Positions 13,394 through 23,982 of a stretch of DNA of 25,041 bases are shown here, piece after piece. A model generated the notes under the pieces. It ran no database searches. It was not told where the DNA came from and was given only the letters and a program-made list of their open reading frames with translations. The translations under genes were made by a program, and so were the position numbers. The first letter of the stretch is position 1. Each line of letters starts with the position of its first letter. Origin of the DNA: a virus; the IMG/VR virus record IMGVR_UViG_3300001970_000082, positions 1-25,041 of that record; one strand, written 5' to 3'.

Positions 13394-13720
13394 ATGACCC
13401 TACCCGACGACCTGAGCGACCGCATACCCGTGGCGAAGATGCCGCCCTTTGACGAGGACTGGGGAGAGGACTGGGGGCCAGACCCCGCTCCGTCCTCTCC
13501 AGACCCCATCAACCCGCCGCACTACGCACAGGGCGACATCGAGTGCATCGACGCCATGCGCGCGTGCTCGACGCGAGAGGAGTATGAAGGGCACTTGCGC
13601 CTGACCGCGCTCAAGTACATCTGGAGGCTGCGGGACAAGGGGTCGGCGGTCGAGAATGCGGAGAAGGCGCAGTGGTATCTGGCGAGGTTGGTTGAGAGTT
13701 TGGGGTCCGACAATGCGTGA
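13394..13720 (+). CDS. DUF3310 family protein
   Basis: This 108-residue protein has an acidic, Pro-rich N-terminal third. It is followed by the DUF3310 signature INPPHYAQGDIECIDAM, then LTALKYIWRLRDKG and VENAEKAQWYLARLVE. To my knowledge this family includes T7 gp1.7, described as a nucleotide kinase-like protein, so a nucleotide-related role is possible. The match supports the family and not the activity. The 3' end overlaps the helicase start by 8 bp. Confidence 0.82.
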   Translation: MTLPDDLSDRIPVAKMPPFDEDWGEDWGPDPAPSSPDPINPPHYAQGDIECIDAMRACSTREEYEGHLRLTALKYIWRLRDKGSAVENAEKAQWYLARLVESLGSDNA

Positions 13721-15413
13721 AGATTATCAAGCCTTCGTCGCCGGCAAGGCATTCAAGGAAGTGCTCGCCGGGTTCACGCCATCGGCCATTGACGCCCCGC
13801 TGTTTGACTTCCAGCGCGCTATTGTCGAATGGGCTTGCCGCCGTGGGCGCGCCGCTATCTTCGCAAACACGGGCCTTGGCAAGACGGCCATGCAGACGAC
13901 GTGGGCGCGGCTTGTTTCCGAGCACGAATCTCGTCCCGTCCTGATCGTCGCGCCGCTGTGCGTTGCGAAGCAAACCGTCAGCGAGGCGGCAAAGTTCGGC
14001 CATGACGTGCGATACGTCCGGTCGATGCCTGCCGATCCGATTGGCCTCTACGTCACGAATTACGAGATGCTGGACGAGTTCGATCCGGCTGCATTCGCAG
14101 GGATCGTGCTGGACGAGTCGAGCATCCTGAAGAACCGCGACGGAAAGACCCGGCAGCGCATCATCCAAGGATGGCGAGAGGTTCCGTATCGGTTGTCCTG
14201 CACCGCCACCCCGTCCCCGAATGACTACATGGAACTCGGGAATCAGGCTGAGTTTCTGGGCGTGATGGGCATGGACGAAATGCTCGCCATGTTCTTCACG
14301 CACGACGGCGGCGACACGTCCAAGTGGCGGCTCAAGGGCCACGGGCGTCGCAAGTTCTGGGAATGGATGGCGACTTGGGCGGTCACGATCCGCTCGCCTG
14401 CTGATCTTGGCTTTGATGCGTCGGGCTACGATCTGCCGCCGCTCAACATGCACGAGCATTCTGTCCCGACGAATTACGGCGACGAGCTGTTCCCGTCGAT
14501 TGCGCAGACGCTTTCAGAAAGGCGCGAGGCGAAAAAGGAAACGCTAGAAGCCCGCGTCGCCAAGGTTGCCGAGAAGGTGGCTGCCGAGTCGTCTGAGCCG
14601 TGGCTTGTCTGGTGCCACACGAACGATGAAAGCGCGGCGCTGTGCGCGGCGATCCCAGGCGCGGTTGAGGTCAAGGGTGCTGACAGCATCGACCAGAAAG
14701 AGCGTGCCATTGAGGGATTTCTCGAAGGATCGGTGCGCGTGCTGGTCACGAAACCGAGCATCGCCGGGATGGGGCTCAACCTTCAGCACTGCGCGCGCAT
14801 GGCATTTGTCGGGCTGGATGACTCGTTCGAGCAAATGTATCAGGCCGTCCGGCGTTGCTGGCGCTTCGGCCAGAGTCGCCCCGTTGATGTGCATATCGTG
14901 ACGGCCGACAGCCTCGGCGCGATCAAGGCAAACGTCGAACGCAAGGAACAACAAATGCAGGAAATGCAGGCGAGCATGGTCGAGCACATGCGCGCATTCA
15001 TGGATAAGGAGGTGCGAGGCGTGAGCAGCGAGAAAAGCGAATATGTGCGCGACGTGGCAGAAGGCGAGGGCTGGACGCTGCACCTTGGGGACTGCGTAGA
15101 CGTGCTGTCCGAGCAGCCGGATGCAAGCGTCGGATACACGGTGTTTTCCCCGCCGTTTGCCAGCCTCTACACCTACAGCAACTCTGACTTTGATATGGGG
15201 AACGTCCGCGACGATAACGAGTTCGCGCAGCAGTTTCGGTTTCTCGTGGACGAGCTGTTCCGCGTCACGATGCCGGGGCGCTTGCTTTCGTTTCACTGCA
15301 TGAACCTGCCGACGAGCAAAGCGCGCGATGGTTACATCGGCGTCCGCGACTTCCGTGGCGAACTGATCAGAATGTTCGAGACGGCGGGCTGGATTTTCCA
15401 TTCCGAGGTCTGA
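13713..15413 (+). CDS. SNF2-type helicase fused to N-terminal part of a DNA methyltransferase, ended by in-frame TGA
   Basis: This 566-residue product starts at ATG 13713 (GGGG about eight bases before); an in-frame start at 13656 is unlikely. The helicase motifs are in order: Walker A TGLGKT (about 53-58), LDESS (134-138), SCTATP (162-167), and a C-terminal lobe ending in QAVRRCWRFGQ, typical of SNF2-like SF2 helicases. From about residue 450 a methyltransferase begins (WTLHLGDCVDVL), with catalytic motif IV as SPPF (about 479-482). The frame then meets TGA at 15411-15413 and continues open with the missing half. Helicase-methyltransferase fusions are known in phages. They may methylate DNA while moving on it, possibly to escape restriction. 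As written, this piece has the catalytic motif but not the SAM-binding motif. Confidence 0.85.
   Translation: MREDYQAFVAGKAFKEVLAGFTPSAIDAPLFDFQRAIVEWACRRGRAAIFANTGLGKTAMQTTWARLVSEHESRPVLIVAPLCVAKQTVSEAAKFGHDVRYVRSMPADPIGLYVTNYEMLDEFDPAAFAGIVLDESSILKNRDGKTRQRIIQGWREVPYRLSCTATPSPNDYMELGNQAEFLGVMGMDEMLAMFFTHDGGDTSKWRLKGHGRRKFWEWMATWAVTIRSPADLGFDASGYDLPPLNMHEHSVPTNYGDELFPSIAQTLSERREAKKETLEARVAKVAEKVAAESSEPWLVWCHTNDESAALCAAIPGAVEVKGADSIDQKERAIEGFLEGSVRVLVTKPSIAGMGLNLQHCARMAFVGLDDSFEQMYQAVRRCWRFGQSRPVDVHIVTADSLGAIKANVERKEQQMQEMQASMVEHMRAFMDKEVRGVSSEKSEYVRDVAEGEGWTLHLGDCVDVLSEQPDASVGYTVFSPPFASLYTYSNSDFDMGNVRDDNEFAQQFRFLVDELFRVTMPGRLLSFHCMNLPTSKARDGYIGVRDFRGELIRMFETAGWIFHSEV
15411..15413 (+). other. 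in-frame TGA inside the helicase-methyltransferase gene
   Basis: The codons around it read GAG GTC TGA ATT TGG AAA GAC CCC GTG. The frame is the same before and after, and protein similarity to this methyltransferase type runs through it: HSEV, then IWKDPV.AMQRTKALGLLHK. In full-length relatives as I recall them a sense codon, often Cys, stands here, one base away from TGA. It may be a nonsense mutation, a sequence error, a split gene with restart at GTG 15429 (GGAAAG lies between), or stop readthrough. Confidence 0.8.
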
Positions 15414-15428
15414 ATTTGGAAAGACCCC

Positions 15429-15923
15429 GTGACCGCTATGCAACGCACGAAGGCGCTGGGCCTACTGCACAAGACGATCCGCAAGGATTCGGCCATGAGC
15501 CGGCAGGGCATCCCGGATTATCTGGTGACGATGCGGAAGCCAGGGGATAACCCGGAGCCGATCAGCCACACGCCCGAACAGTTCCCGGTACAACTCTGGC
15601 AGAGGTACGCCTCGCCGGTCTGGATGGACATCAATCCGACGCGGACGCTGGCCTATCGCGATGCACGCGACGACGATGACGAGCGCCACATCTGCCCGCT
15701 GCAACTCGACGTGATTGAGCGGGCGCTGGACTTGTGGAGCAAGCCGGGCGATCTGGTGTTGTCGCCGTTCGCGGGCATCGGCTCGGAAGGATACTGCGCG
15801 CTTCGTGGTGGTCGTCGGTTCGTCGGGGCTGAACTCAAGCGCAGCTATTGGGAAGTCGCGCGTCAGAACCTTGAAGCGGCCGGGACTGATACGGTCGACA
15901 TGTTCGCTGTCGGAGGATGCTGA
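15429..15923 (+). CDS. C-terminal part of the DNA methyltransferase (SAM-binding half)
   Basis: This 164-residue frame is a direct continuation of the preceding gene after its TGA. It contains SRQGIPDYLVTMRKPG (a conserved block of phage N4/N6-type methyltransferases) and VLSPFAGIGSEGYCALRGGRRFVGAELK, which is motif I (FxGxG) with the acidic ribose-contact strand. Motif IV comes before motif I in the order, so the enzyme belongs to the beta class of amino-methyltransferases. GTG 15429 with GGAAAG upstream could allow separate translation, and the two halves might associate as in known split methyltransferases. Without it, or without readthrough, the enzyme is dead. The stop is one base before the next gene's ATG. 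Confidence 0.78.
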   Translation: MTAMQRTKALGLLHKTIRKDSAMSRQGIPDYLVTMRKPGDNPEPISHTPEQFPVQLWQRYASPVWMDINPTRTLAYRDARDDDDERHICPLQLDVIERALDLWSKPGDLVLSPFAGIGSEGYCALRGGRRFVGAELKRSYWEVARQNLEAAGTDTVDMFAVGGC

Positions 15924-16379: not shown

Positions 16380-16653
16380 GGTGGAGCTCTAGACGGGGGA
16401 TGGTGCGGGGGAATATATCATGCTTGGAACTCCTTCCCCTCTCGGCTGATGATCTGCCCGCGCATATCCGTCGGCGCGTCGGCGTGGTACTCGAGTATGT
16501 CGCCACCTGCCACCACGGGGGCGCATCACCCGCGCATATCCGCCGGCGCGTCGGCGTGGTACTCCCCGCCCTTGAGGGCGCACGCCCGGCAGGGGCTGCA
16601 GCGCGCTCATGCGAGCGGTCCGCTGCACCGCTGGTGCCGGGCGCGTAACTCAT
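16372..16653 (-). CDS. possible small protein overlapping the repeat unit (uncertain)
   Basis: This is an open frame of 93 residues whose ATG makes an ATGA overlap with the previous stop and whose TGA overlaps the next ATG by 8 bp, which argues for a gene. Against it, the product is Arg/Ser/Pro-rich with two copies of STTPTRRRICAG, has no hydrophobic core pattern, and looks like translation of a wrong frame. In GC-rich third positions a different frame is better, giving two copies of EYHADAPxDMRG. That frame is interrupted by TGA at 16607-16609 and 16526-16528. The best reading may be a non-coding locus or a decayed gene. Confidence 0.3.
   Translation of the reverse strand: MSYAPGTSGAADRSHERAAAPAGRAPSRAGSTTPTRRRICAGDAPPWWQVATYSSTTPTRRRICAGRSSAERGRSSKHDIFPRTIPRLELHHV
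16457..16564 (-). CRISPR. CRISPR-like repeat-spacer-repeat unit (36/36/36), unproven
   Basis: A 36-bp sequence occurs at 16457-16492 and again at 16529-16564, with one difference (T at 16471, C at 16543). Exactly 36 bp lie between. In the minus direction the repeat begins GAGTACCACGCC and ends ATATGCGCGGG. Repeat and spacer length equal those of many type V arrays. It lies about 280 bp past the stop of a TnpB/Cas12-like gene, read in the same direction. No third copy is found. The 72-bp period is also divisible by three, so a duplicated coding segment gives the same picture. Confidence 0.35.
16567..16643 (-). ncRNA. candidate structured RNA next to the repeat unit
   Basis: A 9-bp inverted repeat (CGCCCGGCA 16583-16591 / TGCCGGGCG 16635-16643) encloses a 6-bp one (GCAGCG 16598-16603 / CGCTGC 16621-16626). 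That encloses a 4-bp one (GCTC 16605-16608 / GAGC 16613-16616) with a four-base loop, forming one long nested hairpin. A second hairpin (CGCCC / GGGCG, 16567-16580) stands between it and the repeat. On the minus strand the order is long hairpin, small hairpin, repeat, spacer, repeat. This is as expected for a scaffold of a guide RNA, but in GC-rich DNA some inverted repeats arise by chance. Confidence 0.33.
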
Positions 16654-16928
16654 TGGTTTGCCGTGTCCGCCTCGGCGTCACCACCGGACCGCTCGATCGC
16701 CAGCGGCGCCGTGCGCATGAGCCGGTGCGCGAACAAGCGGGCGTGCAGATCGACCTCCAGCGTCTTCGTTGCGCCATACAGCGCCTTGGCCTCTGCGGCG
16801 CCCTGATCGACGTTCACGCCACCCCCGCGGATATCGTCGGCCAGGCTCAGTTGGCGCTCAAACACCGAGCGGAAGTTCCTGGGGTCGTCCGAGACGTGAT
16901 CATATCTCACGATTTCATCGCTACTCAT
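16650..16928 (-). CDS. hypothetical protein after the TnpB-like gene
   Basis: This 92-residue protein begins MSSDEIVRYDHVSDDPRNF and continues mostly helical and polar (FRSVFERQLSLADDIRGGG; GATKTLEVDLHARLFAHRLM). ATG 16928 makes an ATGA overlap with the TnpB-like gene, so the two are translated together. No family recognised. Its tight coupling suggests a partner or regulatory role, which is inference. Confidence 0.65.
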   Translation of the reverse strand: MSSDEIVRYDHVSDDPRNFRSVFERQLSLADDIRGGGVNVDQGAAEAKALYGATKTLEVDLHARLFAHRLMRTAPLAIERSGGDAEADTANQ

Positions 16929-18115
16929 GCTGCGCACTCCTGTAGTTGCCGCCGAACTCGGCGAGATGCCTTGCGGTTCTCGACCGCCAGATTGCCGACG
17001 CTGAGCGCGTCATGCGTGGCACGCGTCAGCGGGATACCCGCCTCTGCGGCCTTGTATTCGATCATTGCCGCGCAGCCGCTCAGTCCCTGTGCCAGCACGG
17101 CCCGGTTAAACGACGCCTTCAGCTCGACCGCGCCGCCCCATTCGTATTGATCGCCGCGACCGGACGCGAGAGCGCCTGAAAGGTCGGCAGGCACCAACAG
17201 GTCAATCGCGCTCGCGCCCGCCACTAGCCTCGAAGTCCACTCATGCAGCGCTTCGCGCCGCTGCCGTCCCGCCCTCGCTTCCAGGCGCGCCTTCTGCCGG
17301 CGGAGGGCGGCGTACTCGACAGAACCGCGTGGCAGCTCGGCCATGCGCTGCTGGATCGACTCGATCCGCCGGTCGGGCGGCGGCAGTCCTACGTCCGACG
17401 CGAGAACGGGCAGGCCGTTGACCCGCGCGAAGCTGTCGATGCCGTCCAGCACCACCACGAGCGGTCGGTCGCCGGCGTCTCGGGCGCGCTCGATCTGGCA
17501 CCCCACGGACAGCCACCACGCTCCAGAATGCCAGCGTATGTCGGCGTCCGTGAGCTTGGTCGGGTCTCCAGGGAATTTGCCCCGAGCCACGATGTCACCG
17601 TCGACGCCCTTGAGCCGTAGCGCCCAGCGGGTGCCGCGCTGATGCGTCAGCTTGCATCCCGAGGCGAATCGGTGCGGCAGCCAGGTCTGTTCGCCACGGC
17701 GATAGGACCGAAATCGCGGATAGCCCGACTGCGACCCCGCGCCCTGTTTCGCCCGGCGGAAAAACGCATCGAACGCCTTCGCCAACGCGTCGGCCACGCG
17801 CCTCGGCGTCCAAGTCGAAAGCGCCTGCCACTCGGGATCGCATGCCAGAAGCTCGCTGACCAGATAGCCCATGTCGAAGCCGCTGAGATGCGACTTCGGT
17901 CCCAGCGTGTGCCTGCCTGCGCGCGTCTCCACGACCCGCACACCTCCGTCCCCGTGACACACACCGCGCTGGCCGCGTGTGCGCCGGTACTGCTCCTCCT
18001 GCATATGTAGCAGGGCGTTCCAGAGCTGGCCGACCAGCCTGCAGTGATCGCGCAGTGCGTTTTCTTGCCACGGGTCCGGGTGGAGCTTGAAGGTGTATCG
18101 GCGATTATTGGCCAT
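16925..18115 (-). CDS. TnpB/Cas12-like protein, RuvC-II Glu and zinc ribbon missing
   Basis: This 396-residue protein has TnpB architecture throughout. The N-terminal module is RYTFKLHPDPWQENALRDHC ... LWNALLHMQ. The WED/REC-like region follows with FDAFFRR and GYPRFRSYRRG (about 115-141). RuvC-I is VVVLDGIDSFA (Asp224). A long charged helix covers about 249-290. RuvC-II is DLLVPADLSG, in which Ala310 stands where Glu is expected. Then comes SFNRAVLAQGLSG..MIEYKAAEAG. A RuvC-III-like end is HDALSVGNLAVEN (Asp369). The CxxC zinc ribbon normally before RuvC-III is absent. ATG 18115 is preferred over GTG 18118. There are no insertion-sequence ends and no TnpA, and the stop overlaps the next start. 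It probably binds DNA with a guide RNA without cutting; that is inference. Confidence 0.85.
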   Translation of the reverse strand: MANNRRYTFKLHPDPWQENALRDHCRLVGQLWNALLHMQEEQYRRTRGQRGVCHGDGGVRVVETRAGRHTLGPKSHLSGFDMGYLVSELLACDPEWQALSTWTPRRVADALAKAFDAFFRRAKQGAGSQSGYPRFRSYRRGEQTWLPHRFASGCKLTHQRGTRWALRLKGVDGDIVARGKFPGDPTKLTDADIRWHSGAWWLSVGCQIERARDAGDRPLVVVLDGIDSFARVNGLPVLASDVGLPPPDRRIESIQQRMAELPRGSVEYAALRRQKARLEARAGRQRREALHEWTSRLVAGASAIDLLVPADLSGALASGRGDQYEWGGAVELKASFNRAVLAQGLSGCAAMIEYKAAEAGIPLTRATHDALSVGNLAVENRKASRRVRRQLQECAA

Positions 18116-18118
18116 CAC

Positions 18119-18565: not shown

Positions 18566-18967
18566 CTACTTCCTCAACAGAGCCTCGACCTGAGCGCGCG
18601 CATCGTCACAGCCACGCCCGACGATGACGGTATGGCCGATGCTCTCTAGGTACTCGATGATGGTTTTCTGATCAGCCGATAACCTGCCCCCCTTGGATCG
18701 TTTCATCTCTACCCATAGGCTCCACGCGGGCACAAACATATCCGGCAGCCCAGCGACCCCGCCCTCGACCTTGATTCGCGCCGCTGCCGTTTTCGAGCGA
18801 TAGCCTCCGTTAGGGATGGCGGCGATCAGGGTGTCGGGGAAAGACTTGCGGAACCAGGAGACAAACTCCCGCTGCTCCTCGTGCTCGGTAGGGATGTAAT
18901 CATTCTTTGGCTGGCGGGGTCGGGGCATGGTGCGGGGGCTCGTGTTAGTGGATCGGGGCGGCTTCAA
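18566..18967 (-). CDS. VRR-NUC domain nuclease
   Basis: This 133-residue protein has the VRR-NUC pattern: HEEQREFVSWFR, AAIPNGG, then GGVAGLPDMFVP (Asp76), LWVEMKR (Glu87, Lys89) and LSADQ (Gln100). These are the Asp, Glu-x-Lys and Gln of the PD-(D/E)XK fold. Stand-alone VRR-NUC proteins are common in phages and are structure-dependent nucleases, probably acting on branched DNA in replication or recombination. TTG 18967 is proposed as start because GAGG lies six bases before it. ATG 18928 is an alternative without a ribosome site and would still contain the whole domain. Confidence 0.85.
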   Translation of the reverse strand: MKPPRSTNTSPRTMPRPRQPKNDYIPTEHEEQREFVSWFRKSFPDTLIAAIPNGGYRSKTAAARIKVEGGVAGLPDMFVPAWSLWVEMKRSKGGRLSADQKTIIEYLESIGHTVIVGRGCDDARAQVEALLRK

Positions 18968-19235: not shown

Positions 19236-19471
19236 GCGGCTACCCACCAACCATACTCGCGGTCATATCGGCACACGCCGCGCTTGCGATACCGCTGGCA
19301 CAGCCGGCGCTGCGCTTCGGCGACGATCCAATGCTTGTCGGCCGAGTCTGGGACTGCACTCAACAGCACGAATTGGACGTCACAAGGCGCCACGCGGCGG
19401 CCCGCGCCCCACTCCTTTGCCATGTATGCCTCTGCCGGTTTCGTGTCAATCTCGTGTCCTGCTATCTTCAT
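19232..19471 (-). CDS. hypothetical protein
   Basis: This 79-residue protein overlaps at both ends with its neighbours by 4 bp. It holds IAGHEIDTKPAEAYMAKEWG and then helical HWIVAEAQRRLCQRYRKRGVC, with the Trp-rich end YGWWVAA. Not recognised. It follows the helicase directly, so a role in the same process is possible. Confidence 0.62.
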   Translation of the reverse strand: MKIAGHEIDTKPAEAYMAKEWGAGRRVAPCDVQFVLLSAVPDSADKHWIVAEAQRRLCQRYRKRGVCRYDREYGWWVAA

Positions 19472-21060
19472 GCCGCCTCCGTCTCAGATTGATCCCCAAA
19501 ATCCCACCGAATCACCCGCTCATACTTCCCCTCGGGCTTCACCAGAATGCGCTCCGGCTCGGGTATGTCCATGCTCAACACCTCCTCGACCGTCTCCGGC
19601 AACTCCAGCCCCATCGCGCGCCACTGCTGCTCCGTTTTCCGCCGCGCGTATCCCTCGTGCTCCGGGCACCACCAATGACTGATCATGCGGAGGCCGCAGC
19701 GGTATGTGACCCTAACCGAATCAGGCTTGCCGGGTTTCTGGTGTCGAGAGTAGGTCACGCCACTAACGGTCAGCCATTCGGGCTTGATCTGGTGCGACAT
19801 GACCGCGCCACCGTAAGCGGTCGCGTCGTGGTTAGGCTCCGGTTCTGGCCACAGATAGCCGCAATCGGGGCACTCGCGCGCAGACAGATGGACTATGGAA
19901 TGACACTTCGGACACGCCTTGGCGGGCATCTCGCCCTCGCCTTGCCCAGAGCCCGGCCGCTTCGGCTTCACGTCGTCAATCGGACCGTGACGCTCCACAT
20001 TGCCGCCGTAGTCGAGCAGCAGCGCGTTTTCCTTTCCTGGGTAGGTGCGCATCAGTCGCCCGACGATCTGTACATAGAGCGCCGTCGAGGCCGTCGCTCG
20101 CAGCAACACGCCCATGTCACAGATCGGCGCATTGAATCCAATCGTGAGCACGTCGCAGTTAACGAGACAGCGCAGGCGCCCGGCGCGGAATCGCTCGATC
20201 AGTTCAGCGCGCTCCGTTTTGTTCGTGCCGCCCGTGATCGCCTCTGCATCGACGCCCATATCGCGGAGCATGTCGCGGATGTGCTGGGCATGGTCAACGC
20301 CCGCCGCAAAGATTAGCCACGCCTTTCGGTTCGCCCCATAGGACACGATTTCGCGACAGGCCGCTTCCGTCAGGCTGGTTTTGTCAAACCGCTCGGCCAT
20401 CTCCTTAGCCACGAACTCACCGCCGCGCTTGTGAACGCCGGACAAGTCCGCCACCTCCGCGCCGCGTTTGCCTACCACCTCGCATAGTTCGCCACGGTCG
20501 AGGAGCGTGCGGACAGGGATGTCATAAGTCACGGCATCGAACAAAGCGCCGTCGCCCTCGTGGAGCATCCCGTTATCGAGCCTGTAAGGAGTAGCCGTTA
20601 AGCCCACCACCTTCATGCGCGGGTTCATGAGGCGCAGCGTATCGAGGCATTGCGCATACTGCGTGCCTGCCTTGCGCGGATACAAGTGCGCTTCGTCAAT
20701 GATGCAAAGGTCGAACGGGTCGATCTGATGCACCTTGTTGTAGATCGTCTGAATCCCCGCAAACAAAATGTCCGCGCCACGGTCGCGCCGTCCGATACTG
20801 GCCGAGAAAAATCCATAGGGCGCTTCGGGCCACTCTTCGGCAAGCTCGGCCGCGTCCTGCTCCAGCAACTCGGCCCGGTGCGTCAGAACGATAATGCGCG
20901 TGCCTGGATAGGTTCTTACCGCCTCGGTGATGAAATGCGCCGCGATCAGCGACTTGCCCGCACCGCATGGCGCCACGATCAGCGGATTGCCGGCGTGATC
21001 GGACCAGTAGGCGTACAGGCTATCGATTGCGGCGCGTTGATAATCGCGGAGGGTTTTCAC
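19468..21060 (-). CDS. SF2 DEAH-type DNA helicase with zinc ribbon
   Basis: This 530-residue protein begins LRDYQRAAIDSL (Q motif). Walker A is APCGAGKS (30-37), then IIDEAHLY (DEAH 122-125), GLTATP (153-158), a second lobe with ITGGTNKTERAELIERF, and motif VI QIVGRLMR (331-338). This is the layout of SF2 helicases of the RecG/UvsW/RAD25-like phage type. A zinc ribbon follows, CPKC ... CPDC (383-400), then about 125 residues without known domain but conserved in style in phage helicases of this kind. It probably unwinds replication or recombination intermediates. It is coupled to its neighbours by 4-bp overlaps. Confidence 0.9.
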   Translation of the reverse strand: MKTLRDYQRAAIDSLYAYWSDHAGNPLIVAPCGAGKSLIAAHFITEAVRTYPGTRIIVLTHRAELLEQDAAELAEEWPEAPYGFFSASIGRRDRGADILFAGIQTIYNKVHQIDPFDLCIIDEAHLYPRKAGTQYAQCLDTLRLMNPRMKVVGLTATPYRLDNGMLHEGDGALFDAVTYDIPVRTLLDRGELCEVVGKRGAEVADLSGVHKRGGEFVAKEMAERFDKTSLTEAACREIVSYGANRKAWLIFAAGVDHAQHIRDMLRDMGVDAEAITGGTNKTERAELIERFRAGRLRCLVNCDVLTIGFNAPICDMGVLLRATASTALYVQIVGRLMRTYPGKENALLLDYGGNVERHGPIDDVKPKRPGSGQGEGEMPAKACPKCHSIVHLSARECPDCGYLWPEPEPNHDATAYGGAVMSHQIKPEWLTVSGVTYSRHQKPGKPDSVRVTYRCGLRMISHWWCPEHEGYARRKTEQQWRAMGLELPETVEEVLSMDIPEPERILVKPEGKYERVIRWDFGDQSETEAA

Positions 21061-21275: not shown

Positions 21276-21556
21276 TTCATCACCTCCGGCATCCCCTCAT
21301 AAACCTCAGTCGGCACCCCATCAGGATCGGCCAGCGGACGCAGCCAGCAAATCGGCACCCATCCGCTATATCCCTCATCCCATGCGACGAGCTGGGCGTC
21401 GTGGGGCAGGCGAGCATTGCCTCCTGACCCATTGCGGACAATGGTGCCCCTGACCAGCGTCTCCCGACTGGCAGCCGTCCCAATCGAGCCAATCTCAGCG
21501 GCGTCGGGCCACCAGACCAAGACTACTCGGGTGCCGGGGGTGTAGGGTTTAGTCAT
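21272..21556 (-). CDS. hypothetical beta-rich protein
   Basis: This 94-residue protein has several strand-like runs (PGTRVVLVWWPD, ETLVRGTIVRNG, AQLVAWDEGYSGWVPICWLRPL), suggesting a small SH3-like or other beta-barrel. It starts 8 bp inside the end of the nuclease gene. No family named; a nucleic acid- or protein-binding role is possible. Confidence 0.62.
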   Translation of the reverse strand: MTKPYTPGTRVVLVWWPDAAEIGSIGTAASRETLVRGTIVRNGSGGNARLPHDAQLVAWDEGYSGWVPICWLRPLADPDGVPTEVYEGMPEVMK

Positions 21557-22604
21557 TGACGATTTCCCCGCTCATTGATTCCCGCGCCCGCTCCAGCGGC
21601 TCAGGCAACGGCAGAAGGTCGATGCGATCGGCGGCGCGTATCTCGTGGGAGGAATAGCCGGAGCCTGTATCGTCGCGCCCGTTGATCATCCCCGAATCGT
21701 ACCGAATCCAGTCGCCGTCGGACTCTATCGCTCGTCGGGTCACGGGACCGGATGCAGTCTCGATGAAAGCGGGATGAAAGACATGGCTCTGACACCCCGC
21801 CCGCTGCTCATCGACCGTCAGCGTCTTCCCCCACCGAGAACAACTCCACGTCCCGTCCCGCTCAGCTGTGGCGTGCGCGCACGTCCGGCAGTTCACTTCG
21901 GGCGCCTTGTCTCTATGACACACGTCAGCGAACGTACAGAACCGGCACTCAAACCAAGAGGGGTCGTCGGAAATCTTAGTGAGAGGTTCTTCGGTGTAGA
22001 TGATGCGCTCGGCTCTGTCTAATAGGCGACTGGCCTCTGACGGATTGGCTCGGACGCGCTCGGTGTATAGCTCCGAGTTATCTTTGCACTCCACAAAATA
22101 CAGCGCGCGATCCATACCAGACAGCGCCATGCCGACCTGCATCTGCGCGTAATGTTCGGGCTTGGCTTCCTGCACGCCTTTCTTTTTTAGGGCGGCGAAG
22201 CTCTTGGCGTTCGATGTTTTCGCTTCCCAGAGGTGCCATTTCTCAGGCCGCTCTAACAGACCCACTAGGGCGCCGTCGAGGCTGCACCCAAAGTGCCCGC
22301 CGAGGGCGCTAAACGTCCACTGGCGCCCCGTGTCCGGGTCCACGTCGAGGACGGTAATCCCGACCGCGCGGAGCTCCTCGACAAAGCGAGGCTCGGCGTC
22401 CCATCCGTACCGGAACAGGCGCAGCATCCGGCCGTCGAAGGACGGGGAGTCGGCCCAACGAAACAAGTACCAGAGGCTACGATCACACGGCCGGCCGATG
22501 ACGGATGCGCCGAGGTGCGGGCGGTGGGCGCTCTCTCGTTTCGCTTCGTAGTGGCGGTAGATCGCCGCGACGGTGGGCTGGATGTGTTTGGCAATATCGG
22601 GCAT
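21549..22604 (-). CDS. Cas4/RecB-like PD-(D/E)XK exonuclease with Fe-S-type cysteines
   Basis: The 351-residue protein has LGASVIGRPCDRSLWYLFRW near the start (Cys40), GCSLDGAL (Asp110), HLWEAKTSN (Glu127, Lys129) and HYAQMQVGM (Gln154). These are the active-site residues of the RecB/Cas4-type nuclease fold. WFECRFCTFADVC gives Cys220, 223 and 229; together with Cys40 this is the four-Cys pattern of the iron-sulfur staple in Cas4 and AddB. A further set (Cys239, 242, 255, 271) may bind zinc. In phage recombination operons such nucleases resect DNA ends for single-strand annealing. Here the neighbours are DUF669 and Sak4-like genes, supporting that role. No strong ribosome site precedes ATG 22604. 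Confidence 0.85.
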   Translation of the reverse strand: MPDIAKHIQPTVAAIYRHYEAKRESAHRPHLGASVIGRPCDRSLWYLFRWADSPSFDGRMLRLFRYGWDAEPRFVEELRAVGITVLDVDPDTGRQWTFSALGGHFGCSLDGALVGLLERPEKWHLWEAKTSNAKSFAALKKKGVQEAKPEHYAQMQVGMALSGMDRALYFVECKDNSELYTERVRANPSEASRLLDRAERIIYTEEPLTKISDDPSWFECRFCTFADVCHRDKAPEVNCRTCAHATAERDGTWSCSRWGKTLTVDEQRAGCQSHVFHPAFIETASGPVTRRAIESDGDWIRYDSGMINGRDDTGSGYSSHEIRAADRIDLLPLPEPLERARESMSGEIVND

Positions 22605-22664: not shown

Positions 22665-23126
22665 TCAGCGTTCCCAGGGCTTCTTCCCGGCAGCCGGAGC
22701 CGGGGCGCTCGGAGCAGCCGAAGCACCCTCCATCGCCCGATACCCCTTCACCTCGTTCTGAGCATCGTACCCATCGCGCGCCGGCCGGATCGTCACCTTC
22801 GCCTGAAGCGGCTTGTCGTGCAGCTCCGTCGAGTCGTCAGGCGCCATGACGCCGACGGCGTGGCAGATTTGCGCGAGGTCCTTCTGCGCGATTTCAACCG
22901 CCTTCGGGTTCGGGTTATCGAGGTTGAGGTTGGTAAAGATGACCCGCCCCTGGTGCTCGCCCTCGATCACGTCGAAACGGAGCTTCAGGTACTGGCCCGT
23001 GCCCGCGCTCGTGGCCTTGAACTCCGAATCCGTGATCATGACGGAATACCAGCCGGCCGGAATCGGATCATAGCTGTCGGTGACTTCGATGTTTGCGGCA
23101 TTGAAGCCGCTGAGATTTCCTGCCAT
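22665..23126 (-). CDS. DUF669 family protein, probable ssDNA-binding protein
   Basis: This 153-residue protein shows the DUF669 layout. The N-terminal strands are IPAGWYSVMITDSEFKATSAG and YLKLRFDVIEGEHQGRVIF. A conserved TNLNLDNPNPKAVEIAQKDL follows, then ICHAVGV and a strand AKVTIRPA. The C-terminal tail is Ala/Pro-rich and ends KKPWER, likely disordered. DUF669 proteins are found in phage recombination modules beside single-strand annealing factors and are considered OB-fold-like binding proteins. Its ribosome site is GGGAG, within the end of the previous gene. Confidence 0.82.
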   Translation of the reverse strand: MAGNLSGFNAANIEVTDSYDPIPAGWYSVMITDSEFKATSAGTGQYLKLRFDVIEGEHQGRVIFTNLNLDNPNPKAVEIAQKDLAQICHAVGVMAPDDSTELHDKPLQAKVTIRPARDGYDAQNEVKGYRAMEGASAAPSAPAPAAGKKPWER

Positions 23127-23133
23127 TGTCGGG

Positions 23134-23904
23134 TCACTCCCCTTGCGTGGCGTTGGTGGAGCCGGACGCCGAAGCCCCCGGCAAGTGCTTGGCGAACTCG
23201 TCCCAGATGAGGGGAACGCTTTCGGGCATGGAATAGCGGTTTTTGGCGACCGCGAACGGACGCTCCTGGAGCAGCAGCATCGAGGTTTCGCCCTTGGCGA
23301 CGCCGCGCCCCTTCTTGTCGTCGGCCTCCTGCTTCCTGACGAACACGGGAAGGTGCGCGAACCCGATCACGTCGGCCTGTTCGTACAGGTACGCAAACGC
23401 CTTCTTGTGCAGCTTGATCTGATAGCGGTCATACGGGTCCGTCTCCGGCGACTGGAACGTCACCACGTCCGTGTGCGCGATCAGGATGACCGTCATCCCG
23501 CGCGAGGCCAGCCCACGCAGCGCCGTCATCAGCTCGCGCCAGTAGTCGAGGGCGTAGATGTAGCCCTTGGCGAAGCCGATATCCTCGATGCTGGTCTTCC
23601 CGTGATCCTCGGCCACCTTCGCCCAGATCAGCGGCTCCAGCGCGGACAGGCTGTCGATGTTGACGGTCTGGAAATCGTGTTCGCCATACAGCGCAGCGAC
23701 GGCTTCCATCACCTGATCGAACGTCTCGCAGAGCGGGAACGTCGGCACGTCAAGCTGGCCGAGACCGTCTTCGGTGCGGATGAAGATGGGCGACGGGGCC
23801 GATGCGCCGAAGGTGGTCTTCCCTCGGCCGGGCGTGCCGTGAATCGTGATGATCGGGGCGCGTTGACTTCCGCCCCGCTGGATGCTGGTTAGATCAAAGG
23901 CCAT
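23134..23904 (-). CDS. Sak4-like RecA-fold ATPase
   Basis: This 256-residue protein has Walker A GTPGRGKT (23-30), a Walker B-like FQTVNIDSLSAL (Asp83), and ILIAHTDVV, corresponding to the sensor strand after it. Such minimal RecA-core proteins without extra domains are the Sak4 type of phage annealing/recombination proteins (AAA_24 nucleotide-binding group). They work with an SSB-like partner, here the DUF669 protein immediately downstream. The start ATG 23904 has AGGA at nine bases; the TTG at 23913 is a less likely alternative. C-terminus is Ser/Ala-rich and probably flexible. Confidence 0.85.
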   Translation of the reverse strand: MAFDLTSIQRGGSQRAPIITIHGTPGRGKTTFGASAPSPIFIRTEDGLGQLDVPTFPLCETFDQVMEAVAALYGEHDFQTVNIDSLSALEPLIWAKVAEDHGKTSIEDIGFAKGYIYALDYWRELMTALRGLASRGMTVILIAHTDVVTFQSPETDPYDRYQIKLHKKAFAYLYEQADVIGFAHLPVFVRKQEADDKKGRGVAKGETSMLLLQERPFAVAKNRYSMPESVPLIWDEFAKHLPGASASGSTNATQGE

Positions 23905-23982
23905 TAGGCTCAATCCTGTGTCGGGTGTCGGGACCGTGGACGCTACCGCGCGCCCGTGGTGGTGTCTAGGCCGTTCGTCGGG

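Follow-up and report, generated by a model that had tools for sequence, protein, structure and literature searches.

The DNA considered here is the whole 25,041-nucleotide (nt) stretch of viral record IMGVR_UViG_3300001970_000082 (the window), and coordinates given without a locus name are window positions. A gene on its minus strand (16925..18118) encodes a TnpB/Cas12-like effector, and two repeats lie further along in the same direction. Together these probably represent a phage-encoded, miniature and nuclease-dead type V system resembling those built on clustered regularly interspaced short palindromic repeats (CRISPR). The proposed course of events is as follows. (i) A TnpB of the IS200/IS605 type would have been captured by phages and would have shed both the zinc ribbon and the catalytic set of RuvC. 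(ii) The source of guides would be an array of short units, each with a pseudoknot, and not a transposon end. (iii) The array would be transcribed, each unit with its 3' guide yielding a CRISPR RNA (crRNA). (iv) The effector would bind matching DNA beside a transposon-adjacent motif and block transcription without cutting. (v) A small helical protein may assist the effector.

The effector is a nuclease-dead TnpB/Cas12-like protein of 396–397 amino acids (aa) without a zinc ribbon; translation can start at a GTG (18118) or an ATG (18115), the latter giving 396 aa. Residues 2–364 match the phrog_506 transposase family (1.9e-21). HTH_OrfB_IS605 is matched above its cut-off (9.9e-6), and the NCBIfam family guided_TnpB is matched at 4.8e-18, yet under the family cut-off. 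A sequence search of the PDB yields TnpB and Cas12n matches at about 1e-6. The AlphaFold2 model, built with 13 orthologues in the alignment, has a predicted local distance difference test score (pLDDT) of 81. When the PDB is searched with this model, ISDra2 TnpB ranks first (E 4.7e-15), followed by another TnpB, Cas12f, LaTranC, Cas12m, Cas12p and Cas12k. An earlier note, made from the letters of the window, had called the protein a TnpB relative. That view is borne out by family matches over most of its length and by structure prediction and superposition, in which the fold is that of TnpB; on this model, the effector is a true TnpB relative with a TnpB fold. The note had also reported no TnpA, and none of the TnpA families is matched among the open reading frames (ORFs) tested, insertion-sequence ends not having been specifically searched.

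Close DNA relatives of the window were not found among phages, and a single-protein search of viral contigs with the window effector gave no match. The orthologue search needed an alignment of the window effector with four canonical TnpBs; with it, orthologues at 37–53% identity were recovered from IMG/VR. Rescans added viral loci and one contig of a Rhodospirillales metagenome-assembled genome (MAG), which also codes for an integrase-like protein. A profile search of genome contigs returned nothing with alignment A3 and returned locus L100 with the later alignment A5. The clade as recovered comprises the window and 16 further phage or prophage members, from IMG/VR phages and the one Rhodospirillales contig, with effectors of 375–477 aa (about 375–430 aa in most). 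In a tree of 28 proteins, these 17 members are separated from 11 canonical TnpBs by a branch with support of 100/100. Cas1 was found in none of the 15 viral records searched, a set with many fragments, and Cas2 was not searched. The sole match in the phage collection is the canonical TnpB of Thermus phage TSP4 (L002:2989-4140), which has a zinc ribbon and is annotated merely as a hypothetical protein (QAY18097.1).

Loss of the catalytic site is a property of the whole clade. The RuvC-II Glu is gone in all 17 aligned members, window included, and the canonical column holds a hydrophobic residue immediately before a conserved Pro. The earlier reading of this change as Glu to Ala (VPADLSG) is right about the loss, whereas the exact replacing residue depends on the alignment. 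The RuvC-I Asp is kept in 16 of the 17 and is Gly in L011; the RuvC-I motif of the clade is one residue shorter after the Asp and lacks the D-x-G glycine, and the register of the Asp is uncertain. For the RuvC-III Asp, a clear counterpart is present in the window protein and L011 alone, L100 being ambiguous. Asp224 (RuvC-I) and Asp369 (RuvC-III), described at first as kept, do stand at the named positions in the window, but the former has this uncertain register and the latter is mostly lost in the clade. A CxxC zinc-ribbon motif occurs in 0 of 17 members, whereas canonical relatives have CxxC, and PF07282, the zinc-ribbon family of TnpB and Cas12f, was not found in the window record; the ribbon is missing, as the note had said. 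Alignment could have revealed a complete DED site, and it is incomplete in 17 of 17. Given these changes, no clade member would be expected to hold a normal two-metal nuclease site. By analogy with Cas12m or TldR, the effector may act through RNA-guided DNA binding.

The candidate guide source, which the earlier note had not seen, is a two-repeat array beyond a small gene of 92 aa. All its parts lie on the minus strand, as the effector does. Repeat unit 1 (36 nt; 16529..16564) has an intact pseudoknot handle and is followed by a 36-nt spacer, guide 1 (16493..16528). Repeat unit 2 (36 nt; 16457..16492) carries one change that breaks one stem pair, and a putative 36-nt guide 2 would lie 3' of it (16421..16456), its extent being taken from the layout of related loci. 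The repeat–spacer–repeat is thus exactly 36-36-36 nt (16457-16564), and the repeats differ at one base. The 32-nt core pattern of the repeat is matched at 16457-16564 only, and shuffles give 0 matches. The units have no match in Rfam. A coding reading of the window repeats, with a GC phase pattern and the peptide EYHADAPADMRG, was discarded, since what related repeats preserve is the RNA fold and not that peptide reading. Searching with part of the window repeat gave L003–L005, and L003, a repeated motif within a gene, was also set aside.

Each unit folds as a five-pair stem whose four-base loop pairs with four bases 7 nt downstream, forming a pseudoknot; the handle measures 27–36 nt. Over 32 units, 96% of the pair cells are formed, against 24–47% when the pairing is slid; over 26 units including those of L100 and L140, the values are 95% and 30–51%. 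These percentages are biased, since the unit coordinates in alignments A4 and A6 were chosen partly by a rule that requires pairing, and this is a first point against the CRISPR-like reading. The alternation seen from one independent locus to another carries more weight, and by it the covariation rests on more than the rule. Compensatory changes on both sides occur in five of nine pairs, and the loop helix (helix 2) is 100% paired, with U-A, G-C and C-G alternatives.

Arrays of this kind, in part longer, accompany most of the related effectors. Repeats with a period of 71–77 nt follow the effector in L012, L013, L054, L056/L057, L061, L062, L140 and L100, some intervals in the L062 array being shorter. 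The array repeats are 36–37 nt long and stand in rows of up to 14 units; in several loci the arrays are strictly periodic, and their spacers, 34–40 nt long, are unique. A single unit is present in L011. The RNA model R1 matches 206 units, spread over 12 of the 14 ortholog records, with up to 33 in single phages, their guides differing; the repeats of L100, which have a different stem, were missed by R1 and recovered by a repeat search. One orthologous effector (G010/L059) has neither units nor the usual small partner gene, and this joint absence fits a functional set. At E <= 0.05, R1 has no match in the tested loci of canonical or distant TnpBs. Nor does R1 detect anything corresponding at the 3' ends of canonical TnpBs, and an omegaRNA origin of the unit is not supported.

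These long arrays bear on a simpler possibility, that the effector is a TldR-type regulator of which one or two guides matter in the window phage, repressing one host or phage gene as TldR does on fliC. In its favour, TldRs too are dead TnpBs carried by phages (PMC13418256), units number two in the window and one in L011, and short seeds are enough for TldR, so that a target could go unseen. However, one fixed target is hard to reconcile with rows of up to 14 units and with 33 unit matches in single phages, the guides being different, and the window contains no match to guide 1. The explanation is quite unlikely. Inference from the fold, the catalytic losses across the clade and the covarying guide scaffolds gives good support to the earlier proposal of a domesticated, nuclease-dead TnpB that serves a phage by binding DNA under RNA guidance. 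Such a protein may be a regulator or a superinfection-exclusion factor, the two roles that the note had offered. The TldR-like layout does not stand, because the putative guides lie in a pseudoknotted array beyond a conserved small gene.

Several further observations weigh against a CRISPR-like system. The window itself has just two repeats, and spacings are irregular (36–122 nt) in G006, G009, G011 and G014. Two in-frame units, at 16596 and 16664 of the L055 record, lie within a phage gene of G006 and are both missing from its relative G011; this is not CRISPR behaviour. L014 and L144 carry other hairpin repeats within the effector ORF, and in phage records there is no convincing guide match. 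G006 and G011 come from one sample and are 88% identical over 17.5 kb, and many of their units differ. Units also overlap the effector 3' end in L055, L058 and L060, where TnpB keeps its omegaRNA. Both the G006/G011 differences and this position suggest that units can move singly, and a mobile-palindrome component alongside guide units is possible.

Taken further, the repeats would be mobile palindromic elements, REP/MITE-like (repetitive extragenic palindrome or miniature inverted-repeat transposable element) or like the Rickettsia palindromic element. The dead TnpB would be a domesticated hairpin binder that controls or aids their spread, and the spacers incidental flanks. The irregular or dispersed units of the four genomes just named, the in-frame insertion in G006 with its empty site in G011, and an in-frame unit-like segment in the L058 effector (PGSHGQKRE, after RuvC-I, resembling a degenerate translated unit) all speak for this. 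Against it stand the several strictly periodic arrays with unique spacers, the common direction of units and effector (of 192 units identified by rule, 177 share its strand) and a covarying part that includes a pseudoknot, which a simple palindrome does not need. We consider it unlikely. A more tentative proposal, which is possible at best, joins the two behaviours in a distinct, phage-dedicated type V subtype made of a dead zinc-ribbon-less TnpB, a small helical partner and a minimal pseudoknot crRNA. Units would stand in arrays or be inserted singly, even in-frame, and each insertion would be a guide against the unit-less allele of a rival phage, the phage's own copy being shielded.

What the guides of the putative CRISPR-like system would recognize is the least certain part of the explanation. 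Outside the array, own-phage matches exist for two of about 180 guides: that of G003 unit 8048, with one mismatch and one gap, within a tail-protein-like ORF, and that of G006 unit 17535, over 28/28 nt. Exact guide 20-mers occur in viral contigs only in the source array. The best match of guides to the Rhodospirillales MAG, 21/22 nt with E 0.03, is not convincing. The tail peptide near the G003 guide has no match in phages, and the peptide-level guide test is confounded by the same contigs recurring under other locus numbers. A weak guide match to Streptomyces phages joins two short pieces and was not accepted as a target. The heteroduplex recognized by TnpB is about 12 bp (PMC10442227), and a guide of 6 nt can be enough for TldR (PMC13418256); functional targets could therefore escape detection. 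Rival phages are favoured as the target and the host comes second, because an own-phage match is missing for nearly all guides and one guide nearly matches a tail-protein gene. A last alternative holds that the dead effector or the array RNAs are decoys that titrate host CRISPR or TnpB components in an anti-CRISPR role, as is thought for a phage Cas9 with inactivated RuvC (PMC11656645). It is highly improbable: the units come with a pseudoknot and an effector of their own, and a host array of the same repeat was not seen, though not widely searched.

The small partner gene (92 aa; 16650..16928, minus strand) sits between effector and repeats and is translationally coupled to the effector, and its ATGA overlap with the effector stop confirms the earlier remark that the stop is stitched to the next gene. 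The protein is predicted to form one short and one long helix. Nearly all related loci have a small ORF directly after the effector, its start in most cases overlapping the effector stop; L054 and L058 are less clear-cut. Identity to the window protein is 12–31%, except for 56% in L011. Compared at this level, the small ORFs are likely to be homologous in many loci, though not demonstrably in all.

About 50 independent associations of TnpBs with arrays are described, together with several inactivated type V subtypes that silence by binding (Makarova et al. 2025; PMC12669027), and the clade fits into this landscape. With TnpBs of IS200/IS605 (ISDra2, ISFba1) its effectors share the fold, the order of N-terminal domains and the RuvC scaffold, at about 25–30% identity to intact relatives. 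They differ in having no zinc ribbon, no RuvC-II Glu, mostly no RuvC-III Asp, no TnpA seen and guides from an array. TldRs, phage dead TnpBs guided by a guide RNA (gRNA; PMC13418256), are alike in their inactivated RuvC and in the RNA-guided DNA binding expected here; they use one gRNA directly at the gene 3' end and not a many-guide array beyond a small gene, and in the clade the zinc ribbon is lost. Cas12m (type V-M) is also a compact CRISPR effector with a non-cleaving RuvC, and it silences by binding (PMC10442227, PMC11013384). However, it has about 600 aa, REC2, a zinc finger and an HDD site (PMC10442227), whereas clade effectors have about 400 aa and no zinc finger. A study of landfill viruses describes phage proteins that are small and type V-like and lack RuvC motifs (PMC12607003).

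Regular repeats with unique spacers beside the effector, as in related loci, are a trait of type V CRISPR-Cas in general. The type V-U candidates C2c8/V-U2 and C2c9/V-U4 and phage type V families likewise place a small TnpB-like effector beside an array and give weak profile matches; the C2c8 score of the window protein is 22 bits, far under the NCBIfam cut-off of 350. A 2022 study in Cell reportedly describes 44 phage type V families, and the present family could be among them. TranC, represented by LaTranC among the structural matches, is TnpB-like and an active nuclease, whereas the clade looks dead. The TnpB fold of the clade effector also sets it apart from the Tas protein of TIGR-Tas. 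If the reading is right, the clade would be another route from TnpB to a CRISPR effector, taken inside viruses and toward silencing rather than cutting. Its members would be among the smallest guided DNA binders, at about 375–430 aa mostly, without a zinc ribbon and with a 27–36-nt handle. From a single unit (L011) through a pair (window) to long arrays and dispersed units, the clade offers a series in which the origin of arrays from TnpB guide RNAs is directly testable.

Two effectors carry arrays of their own. In L014 (4590-4900 and 5560-5860) there is an in-frame array in the effector ORF with the repeat GGTCTCGTCACCCCGCATTTGTCCGGTGACGAGAAC and a 66-nt period. An identical 87-nt leader precedes this array and a second one; it contains CACCGGACA, complementary to TGTCCGGTG of the repeat, as in the anti-repeat of a trans-activating crRNA. 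In L144 (1133-1377) a second, divergent effector has an in-frame four-repeat hairpin array, also of 66-nt period, at a similar place after RuvC-I.

Upstream of the effector and in its direction lie genes for a VRR-type nuclease (18566..18967, minus strand) and a DNA helicase (19468..21060, minus strand). Roseobacter phage CRP-902 has a relative of the helicase that likewise precedes a VRR nuclease, and no such unit occurs there. Genes for proteins like single-stranded DNA-binding protein (SSB), a Sak4-like annealing protein and a Cas4-domain exonuclease (22665-23913 and 21549-22604) form a recombination set of the usual phage kind rather than a module for CRISPR adaptation. On the plus strand, facing the early genes, 13394-15923 holds genes that match a nucleotide kinase, an SNF2-like helicase and a short fragment of an N6/N4 DNA methylase.
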